NCBI RefSeq assembly: GCF_900103985.1
Contig: NZ_FNIE01000005.1
Coordinates: 310,001 to 374,000, forward strand
DNA: 64,000 nt
Direction of reading: 5' to 3'
Source of the DNA: Actinacidiphila guanduensis
GTDB taxonomy: Bacteria; Actinomycetota; Actinomycetes; Streptomycetales; Streptomycetaceae
Under the pieces are notes generated by a model. The model made no database searches, had not been told where the DNA came from, and saw nothing but the letters and a program-made list of their open reading frames with translations. Position numbers and translations under genes: made by a program. Positions 18,305-20,588 of the stretch are shown here, in pieces. Numbering within the stretch: the first letter of the stretch is position 1; the number at the start of each line of letters is the position of its first letter.

Positions 18305-18868
18305 TTACTTGCTCGTGATTTCCCGGAGCAGGCCGGTGTGCACGTCGAAGACGAAGCCGCGCACGTCGTCGGTGTGGGCCAGGAACGGCGAGGTCCGCAC
18401 CCGGGCCATGGACTGCCGCACGTCCTGGTCGATGTCGGTGAACGCCTCCACCGCCCAGGTCGGGCGCTGGCCCACCTCCCGCTCCAGTTCGGTGCGGAAG
18501 TCCTCGGTGATGGTCTGCATGCCGCAATTGGTGTGGTGGATCAGCACGACCGAACGGGTGCCCAGGGCGCGCTGGCTGATGGCCAGGGAGCGGATGGTGT
18601 CGTCGGTGACCACCCCGCCCGCGTTGCGGATGGTGTGGCAGTCACCCAACTGGAGGCCGAGCGCCTTGTGCAGGTCGAGCCGGGCGTCCATGCAGGCGAC
18701 CACGGCCACCCGCAGTACCGGCGCGGCGCCCATGCCCGGGTCGGTGAATTCGGCGGCGTAGCTCGCGTTGGCGGCGACCAGGCGGTCGGTGACGGATGCG
18801 GTGGCGGTGCCGGTCGAGGCGCCCTCCACGGCGGGGGACTCCTCGGAGCCGCTGGCAGGTATCGACAT
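18305..18868 (-). CDS. beta-carbonic anhydrase
   Basis: Small beta-class carbonic anhydrase of 187 residues catalysing reversible hydration of CO2. The zinc ligands are visible: Cys59 in the C-x-D-x-R motif ([10 protein letters not shown]; Asp61 and Arg63 form the catalytic dyad), and His112 and Cys115 in HHTNCGM. The [10 protein letters not shown]-like segment ([18 protein letters not shown]) is also typical. The short form of about 165-190 residues is common in actinobacteria. ATG at 18868 is preceded by no strong ribosome site; GTG/ATG alternatives would extend a low-complexity N-terminus. It is divergent from mraZ across 120 bases, as in other streptomycetes. Confidence 0.9.
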
Positions 18869-18926: not shown

Positions 18927-18967
18927 TTGACCGTGGGGCAACGTGGAGTAAAGTGGCGCGAAGTGGT
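18927..18967 (+). promoter_or_regulatory. mraZ promoter overlapped by four MraZ-type boxes
   Basis: TTGACC (18927-18932) and TAAAGT (18949-18954) are spaced by 16 bases and form a good housekeeping-type promoter. Covering it are four GTGGN boxes at exact 10-base intervals: GTGGG 18933-18937, GTGGA 18943-18947, GTGGC 18953-18957, GTGGT 18963-18967. In other bacteria MraZ is known to bind clusters of TGGG-like boxes separated by 5 bases before its own gene, so the array is the probable autoregulatory operator of the dcw cluster. One helical turn of spacing fits one face of the DNA and the ring-shaped MraZ oligomer. Confidence 0.85.
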
Positions 18968-18988
18968 GCCGGCGGCGGGAGGTGTGCG

Positions 18989-19429
18989 GTGGACCTGGGC
19001 TTCCTGGGCACGTACACGCCGCGGCTGGACGACAAGAACCGGCTGGTGCTGCCGGCCCGGTTCCGCGAGCCGCTGGCCGGCGGGCTGGTCATCACCCGCG
19101 GGCACGAGCGGTGCCTGTGCGTGTGGCCGGTGGAGGGCTTCCGGGCCGCCACCGAGCAGCTGGCCGCCGCCCCGCTGACCTCCAAGGCCGCGCGTGACTA
19201 CTCCCGGGTGCTCTTCGCCGGCGCCCACGACGAGGTGCCCGACAAGCAGGGCCGGATCACCGTCCCGCAGCCCCTGCGGGAGTACGCGGGCCTGGTCCGC
19301 GACTGCGCGGTCATCGGCGCCAACACCCGGGTGGAGATCTGGGCGGCGGACGCCTGGGAGGCGTATCTGGCCGCCCAGGAAGACACCTTTTCGGCCCTGT
19401 CCCAGGAGGTTCCGACCGGATTACTGTGA
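18989..19429 (+). CDS. mraZ: transcriptional regulator MraZ, first gene of the dcw cluster
   Basis: AbrB-like DNA-binding protein of 146 residues (family about 140-150) that binds its own promoter. The tandem swapped-hairpin domains are recognisable: [24 protein letters not shown] (residues about 4-27) and the second copy [22 protein letters not shown] (about 83-104). The GTG start at 18989 follows GGGAGG (18977-18982) by 6 bases. Four GTGGN boxes lie in its promoter. rsmH follows after 175 bases, a gap with no feature I can name. It is the first gene of the cluster, as in most bacteria. Confidence 0.93.
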
Positions 19430-19604
19430 GCGCGGCCGACGGGCCCGCCCACCGCGCGCCACCTCGCCCCACCGCGGACGTACGACCCGGCCTCCTCCCG
19501 CTCCCCGGCCCAGCTGGCACCACTTCCCCGGTGCCAGAAGGGCCTCTGCCGAGCGGGCGGGGACCCGGTCCTGCGTCCCGGCCGCCCCCTGACATCGTGG
19601 AACC

Positions 19605-20588
19605 GTGAAACCAGGCCCCATGACCGACCCGTCCCCGACCCCGCAGCACGTCCCGGTGATGCTGCGCCGCTGCCTCGACCTCCTCGGGCCGGCGCTCGCC
19701 CTTCCGGGTGCCGTGGTGGTCGACGCCACCCTGGGCCTCGGCGGGCACAGCGAGGCGCTGCTCGCCACCTTCCCGTCCTGCCGGCTGATCGCCCTCGACC
19801 GCGACCCGGCCGCCCTGGACCTGGCCGGCAAGCGCCTGGCCCCCTTCGGCGACCGGGTCACCGCCGTCCACGCGGTCTACGACGAGCTGCCGCAGGTGCT
19901 CGCCCGGCTCGGGGTGCCCCGGGTGCAGGGCGTCCTGTTCGACCTCGGCGTGTCCTCCATGCAGCTGGACGAGGCCGACCGCGGCTTCGCCTACGCCCAG
20001 GACGCGCCGCTGGACATGCGGATGGACCAGTCGGTGGGCATCAGCGCCGCCGAGGTGCTCAACACGTACCCGCCCGGCGAACTGGTGCGCATCCTGCGCT
20101 CGTACGGCGAGGAGAAGTTCGCCCGCAAAATCGTGGAGGCGGTGGTCCGCGAGCGGGCCCGCGAGCCCTTCACCACCAGCGCCCGGCTGGTCGAGCTGAT
20201 CCGCGAGGCCCTGCCGCAGGCCGCCAAGCGCACCGGCGGCAACCCGGCCAAGCGCACCTTCCAGGCGCTGCGCATCGAGGTCAACGGCGAACTGCCGGTG
20301 CTGGAGCGGGCCGTACCCGCGGCCGTGGGCGCCCTCGCGGTCGGCGGCCGGATCGCCGTGCTGTCGTACCACTCGCTGGAGGACCGGCTGGTCAAGCAGG
20401 TGCTCGCGGCCGGCGCCGCGCACAGCGCCCCGCCGGGGCTGCCCGTGGTGCCCGAGCAGTACCAGCCGCGGCTGAAGCTGCTCACCCGCGGCGCCGAACT
20501 GCCGGGCGAGGACGAGATCGCCGAGAACCGCAGGGCGGCGCCGGCCCGGCTGCGGGCGGCGGAACGGATCAGGGAGGACGTGCGGTGA
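19605..20588 (+). CDS. rsmH: 16S rRNA (cytosine1402-N4)-methyltransferase RsmH
   Basis: SAM-dependent methyltransferase modifying C1402 of 16S rRNA at N4, 327 residues. Seen: [13 protein letters not shown] near the start, motif [17 protein letters not shown] (about 38-53), [34 protein letters not shown] (about 108-129) and the C-terminal [19 protein letters not shown], all RsmH hallmarks. GTG at 19605 is used here; an ATG at 19620 in the same frame is an alternative that loses five residues. The stop overlaps the ftsL start (GTGA, 20585-20588). Confidence 0.95.

Follow-up and report, generated by a model that had tools for sequence, protein, structure and literature searches.

Four short repeats at the promoter of the mraZ gene in Actinacidiphila guanduensis form, in all probability, the operator of the MraZ protein, whatever the sign of the regulation. 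They are found in a window of 64,000 nucleotides (contig NZ_FNIE01000005.1, positions 310,001 to 374,000), which is the whole stretch of DNA that was analyzed and to which all coordinates refer unless otherwise indicated. They sit at the promoter that heads the dcw cluster, whose first gene is mraZ. They have the form expected of an MraZ site, at least three direct repeats with a GTG/TGG core and a 10 bp period: In this case there are four. Among relatives in the same family, four boxes in this register are found in 54 of 54 upstream regions with mraZ and in none of the 39 without it, where single boxes survive, chiefly box 2.

All four boxes are placed in the intergenic gap between mraZ and a divergent carbonic anhydrase gene (18305-18868, minus strand, Pfam PF00484). 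The first-pass annotation had described them as four GTGGN words with an exact 10 bp spacing, overlapping the mraZ promoter. The sequence confirms the coordinates: GTGGG, GTGGA, GTGGC, and GTGGT start at 18933, 18943, 18953, and 18963. A better unit is GTGGNG, which fits the four boxes of the window. The predicted MraZ boxes are thus GTGGGG (box 1, 18933..18938), GTGGAG (box 2, 18943..18948), GTGGCG (box 3, 18953..18958), and GTGGTG (box 4, 18963..18968), all on the plus strand. A promoter scan agrees with the overlap. The -35 element TTGACC (18927..18932) and the -10 element TAAAGT (18949..18954), separated by a 16 bp spacer, form the only sigma-70-like promoter between 18800 and 19660 (18927-18954, plus strand; shuffled sequences give a mean of 0.0). 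The spacer is taken up by boxes 1 and 2, and the boxes also extend over the final part of the -10, since the first two letters of box 3 are the last two of TAAAGT. Box 4 probably lies at or just after the transcription start, which is predicted near 18961 from the position of the -10. A ribosome-binding site, GGGAGG, follows (18977..18982, plus strand), and the mraZ start is found 20 bp downstream of the four-box element.

The mraZ gene (18989..19429, plus strand) has a GTG start and codes for 146 amino acids, presumably the protein which binds the boxes. It matches Pfam PF02381 in two stretches (118 bits) and the solved MraZ structure 1n0e (E 5.4e-20). Its matches to solved structures also include 9qlg, 9qlr, 9r4j, 9sx6, and 9sz7. 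Proteins of the MraZ family are marked by a D-x-x-x-R motif in each of two domains. The motifs are DDKNR and DKQGR in this case, and the residues D14, R18, D85, and R89 are invariant in 24 aligned sequences. A structure prediction with a mean pLDDT of 44 was left unused. The next dcw gene is rsmH, also called mraW (19605..20588, plus strand, taken from the list of open reading frames). Between both genes there is a leader similar to mraW RNA (19484..19570, plus strand), which matches RF01746 with 39.3 bits (E 2.2e-6), as compared to a gathering score of 50. The stretch CTTCCCCGG is also visible upstream of rsmH in four genomes without mraZ. A candidate for a second MraZ site just before the mraW RNA (19449-19472, minus strand) was rejected, its conservation being too low: Three GTGG at 10 bp spacing are found in 3 of 31 loci of the genus, and at least two boxes in 9 of 31.

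The pattern GTGGN6GTGGN6GTGG appears three times in the window, while the mean is 0.02 in 100 shuffles which preserve dinucleotides. Two of the matches are the element at the mraZ promoter, and the third is the minus-strand site at 19449-19472. This excess is absent from the whole genome of 8.2 Mb, with 14 matches versus 24 for a reversed control pattern. The four-box pattern, with RTGG as the last box, shows no genome-wide excess either (4 matches versus 3 in the control). Three of these four matches belong to a single tandem array located outside the window (G000:C12:94844-94897), which is formed by units of GTGGCTGGCG. We have rejected the genome count as proof of function, as both the three-box and the four-box words are at background. 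The argument for a function therefore rests on position and conservation. The GTGG words might be considered a mere part of a conserved promoter, or chance repeats in GC-rich DNA, in view of the reversed pattern being at least as common genome-wide and of the frequent retention of box 2 in genomes without mraZ. We find this extremely improbable: The GTGG at boxes 1 to 3 is invariant in the 54 upstream regions with mraZ, in contrast to the variable first spacer, and relatives which lack mraZ but retain the -35 and the -10 have mostly lost boxes 1, 3, and 4.

All 35 genomes of the genus contain mraZ, and in all 35 it is preceded by the four-box element. There are 55 matches to the four-box pattern in these genomes, 35 at mraZ and 20 elsewhere, while the reversed control gives 79. 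The 20 matches found elsewhere have unlike sequences, mostly tandem repeats of differing units. A three-box search with GTGGNG in the genus did not find any other recurrent non-tandem sequence by its matched letters, except the 19449 site in one genome (G012). The set of MraZ targets in the genus is likely to be a narrow one, judging from these searches. The same is described in PMC8475190 for M. genitalium, whose only such site lies at mraZ.

In the family, 54 of 247 genomes gave a match to mraZ. One of these matches (G198, E 7.7e-4) contains a stop and was judged spurious. The other 53 genomes, together with one genome of the genus (G015), provide 54 distinct upstream regions, one per genome. 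The first-pass annotation had suggested an alignment of the mraZ upstream regions of relatives, and this alignment bears it out: The boxes are conserved in the 35 genomes of the genus and in the 54 distinct upstream regions of the family, always in the 10 bp register (42 are perfect, 12 have ATGG as the fourth box). The more specific pattern GTGGN6GTGGN2TAN2GTGG is also present in all 54, and the TTGAC of the -35 in 49. In the family, pairs of GTGG are found 152, 98, and 46 times at distances of 10, 20, and 30, and no other spacing in the range 3 to 45 occurs more than 7 times. Five upstream regions (L101, L118, L120, L121, and L198) have more than 100 bp between the element and the start codon, and the element is complete in them; in L118, L120, and L121 the fourth box is ATGG.

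A total of 194 genomes of the family, including G198, were counted as lacking mraZ. No convincing mraZ is found in any sampled member of seven genera, which we call g2, g75, g76, g81, g82, g85, and g86. The large sister genus g2 is very probably Streptomyces, judging from the family and from how large the genus is. We have examined further 40 genomes without mraZ. The Pfam profile did not find a full MraZ in any of the 40. Partial matches to PF02381 in three of them (G191, G203, and G174) were judged to be due to chance: They are single, cover 39-40 of 72 positions, and are located in open frames of 344-1229 amino acids, although two are at or over the curated cut-off. In a sample of the class, 13 of 118 genomes have no match to mraZ; seven of them belong to g2, and the other six are 60-86% complete. 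The description of the boxes as a Streptomyces version of the operator cannot be maintained: The genome is from Actinacidiphila, and in the g2 genomes which we examined both mraZ and the four-box element are missing. Another genome of the window's genus, G033, agrees with Actinacidiphila yanglinensis (L013) in the coordinates of mraZ and in the sequence upstream of it, and G166 shares its mraZ position with Streptantibioticus silvisoli (L025), which identifies the family as Streptomycetaceae.

These genomes amount to a series of natural knock-outs: MraZ and its putative operator have disappeared together, and the promoter has stayed. We have obtained rsmH from 39 of the 40 (G179 has no usable match); with mraZ absent, the promoter is directly followed by rsmH in these relatives. 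A carbonic anhydrase gene is found at 33 of the 39 loci, and in all 33 it points away from rsmH, the same arrangement as in the window. None of the 39 has more than two boxes upstream of rsmH, the same level as in shuffled sequences. GTGGN6GTGGN2TAN2GTGG is not found anywhere in the 40 genomes, as compared to 6 matches, attributed to chance, for the reversed control. A promoter which can be aligned is present before rsmH in 35 of 39 genomes, versus 1 of 1950 shuffles; it was scored on the letters of the -35 and the -10 alone, whose frequencies in these rows are set by the construction of the search. The box counts exclude four upstream regions which could not be aligned (L160, L178, L285, and L286), among which L178 has retained boxes 2 and 3. 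A whole GTGG is found at box 1 in 0 of the 35 aligned promoters, at box 2 in 24, and at box 3 in 3, versus 54 of 54 with mraZ in the three cases. The two letters of box 3 outside the -10 (GG) are kept in 6 of 35, as compared to 54 of 54. At box 4, GTGG is found in 3 of 35 versus 42 of 54, and ATGG in 0 of 35 versus 12 of 54. Even in box 2, the G at the sixth position is found in 16 of 35 promoters without mraZ and in 54 of 54 with it. Nine promoters have kept no box, 22 have kept one, and four have kept two. As the promoter is kept while boxes 1, 3, and 4 are mostly lost in the absence of mraZ, most of the box letters appear to be held by MraZ and not by the promoter.

A quick tree of RsmH, FtsI, MurE, and MurF from 36 genomes, with a similar result by FastTree, indicates that the presence of mraZ changes at least three times in the family, a number forced by well supported branches. 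A single clade without mraZ is rejected (p-AU 1.25e-28). The changes would be losses of mraZ, because its place is conserved across the class. Since the rows within each genus are related, the independent evidence amounts to about three events, not 35. A loss of mraZ with retention of the dcw genes is also described in multicellular Neisseriaceae (PMC9395523); what differs in this case is that there are at least three changes in a single family, and that the eroded operator is still visible. We have found no description of the loss of mraZ or its boxes in Streptomycetaceae or Streptomyces in the open-licence literature searched.

Not everything that is conserved in these promoters disappears with mraZ. 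Besides the 24 of 35 which keep box 2, all 10 aligned promoters of g2 (within L153-L165) retain the CGCGAA after the -10, beside box 3. In g85, 7 of 10 aligned promoters preserve one GTGGAG, at most 2 bases from the place of box 4. Some of the conservation must therefore have a cause other than MraZ, and something else may be holding these stretches. It might be another regulator which maintains the whole series, for example MtrA, for which a gel shift on the mraZ promoter of Dietzia is reported in PMC9602371, and the persistence of CGCGAA and box 2 in many promoters without mraZ would agree with it. We consider this very unlikely as the reason for the repeats. The boxes decay in relatives without mraZ even though MtrAB acts in Streptomyces according to PMC9602371, an argument which depends on g2 being Streptomyces, and the 10 bp series agrees with the MraZ sites described for other bacteria in PMC8475190 and PMC7761207.

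Box 3 may indicate how the operator of MraZ is eroded. It reads GTGA in 9 of the 10 aligned promoters of g2, and in 13 of the 15 promoters of g75, g76, and g82. The exception in g2 is L165, which still has GTGG; it belongs to G198, which groups on the tree as the sister of the three remaining g2 rows. It appears that one and the same letter of box 3 was altered separately in different groups. A tentative proposal, to which we give less than even confidence, is that MraZ has been given up several times independently in one family, that rsmH has inherited the promoter, and that the operator has eroded by a repeatable path, with the last G of box 3 changing to A both in g2 and in g75, g76, and g82. 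The retained GTGA-CGCGA beside the -10 would be a promoter which, once the repressor had gone, was either retuned or came under the control of a different regulator. If this is true, it would help explain how the dcw cluster operates in Streptomyces without MraZ.

When the boxes are pooled, they are A-rich and then read GTGG-N-G, with the second G in 89% of the boxes in the family and 81% in other Actinomycetes. The MraZ boxes of E. coli are reportedly three TGGGN repeats, a description attributed to Eraso et al. in 2014, versus four GTGGNG in this case, among which the exact pentamer TGGGN is only found in box 1. The idea of an MraZ operator heading the dcw cluster is thus supported by boxes which are conserved with mraZ and decay without it, while the E. 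coli-type TGGGN unit has to be replaced. Otherwise E. coli is similar, in features described in part in PMC8475190 and PMC7761207: The operator is at the mraZ promoter, has a 10 bp period and a TGG core, and the dcw cluster lies behind. According to PMC7761207, the E. coli repeats are downstream of the -10, while those of Actinacidiphila begin upstream of it. The same source reports binding of MraZ to four 10 bp repeats in Burkholderia cenocepacia (7 nt repeats with a 3 nt spacer), which share with our boxes the period, the GTG core, and the overlap with the start point; that site is downstream of the -10, while ours is shifted upstream, onto the spacer and the -10. The site of Mollicutes consists of AAAGTG[T/G] direct repeats (PMC8475190, citing Fisunov et al. 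2016). The pooled actinobacterial boxes are likewise A-rich before GTG; they differ in having, throughout the family, an invariable G after the GTG of boxes 1 to 3, and then a free letter and another G. The sites of B. cenocepacia and Mollicutes, as given in PMC7761207 and PMC8475190, also depart from the TGGGN pentamer. In summary, the type of operator is already known, and this putative member deviates slightly in consensus and location; the comparative test for it is unusually clear.

A ring-shaped MraZ on four 10 bp repeats is reported in other bacteria in PMC7761207. In a similar way, neighboring subunits of a ring-shaped oligomer would contact one face of the DNA, presumably with one subunit on each GTGGNG box and a box at every helical turn. 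MraZ would then occupy some 36 bp, beginning right after the -35 and reaching the start point. The bound protein would block RNA polymerase, so that mraZ, rsmH, and the genes further downstream would be transcribed less, a negative feedback of MraZ on its own gene cluster. Repression is the likely sign of the predicted control, as it is favored by the geometry of the boxes, which points to occlusion of the polymerase. According to PMC8475190, MraZ binds such boxes and represses the dcw genes in E. coli, and repression is also found in M. genitalium. In Neisseria elongata, on the other hand, deletion of mraZ lowered the expression of five dcw genes located behind it, and the absence of mraZ in its multicellular relatives goes with a lower dcw expression, as reported in PMC9395523. 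Published reports therefore disagree about the sign. Instead of being a plain repressor, MraZ bound to these boxes might activate transcription or switch it according to dose. If the boxes are its operator, we regard this as unlikely: They begin behind the -35, run across the -10, and reach the probable start, a region in which polymerase is normally blocked by a bound protein, and MraZ is termed a repressor in E. coli and M. genitalium in PMC8475190.

These results provide a putative form of the actinobacterial MraZ operator, four GTGGNG boxes in a fixed register with the -10. As g2, very probably Streptomyces, would be without MraZ control, the study of MraZ belongs in Actinacidiphila or similar relatives.

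We have also considered other Actinomycetes, with 126 upstream regions: 66 from mraZ loci in genomes of the class, and 60 more from relatives, of which the best 80 among 469 were taken. One with less than 60 bp (L046) was left out. Giving a value of 1 to each GTGG and one half to any other NTGG, with a maximum of 4, 121 of the remaining 125, which include many related freshwater MAGs, score at least 2.5, as compared to 10 of 2500 plain letter shuffles. In many of the freshwater Actinomycetes (L029-L092), the boxes continue upstream across the -35 (GTGGTTGA...) and include a central AAGG variant, which suggests arrays with five or more box positions.
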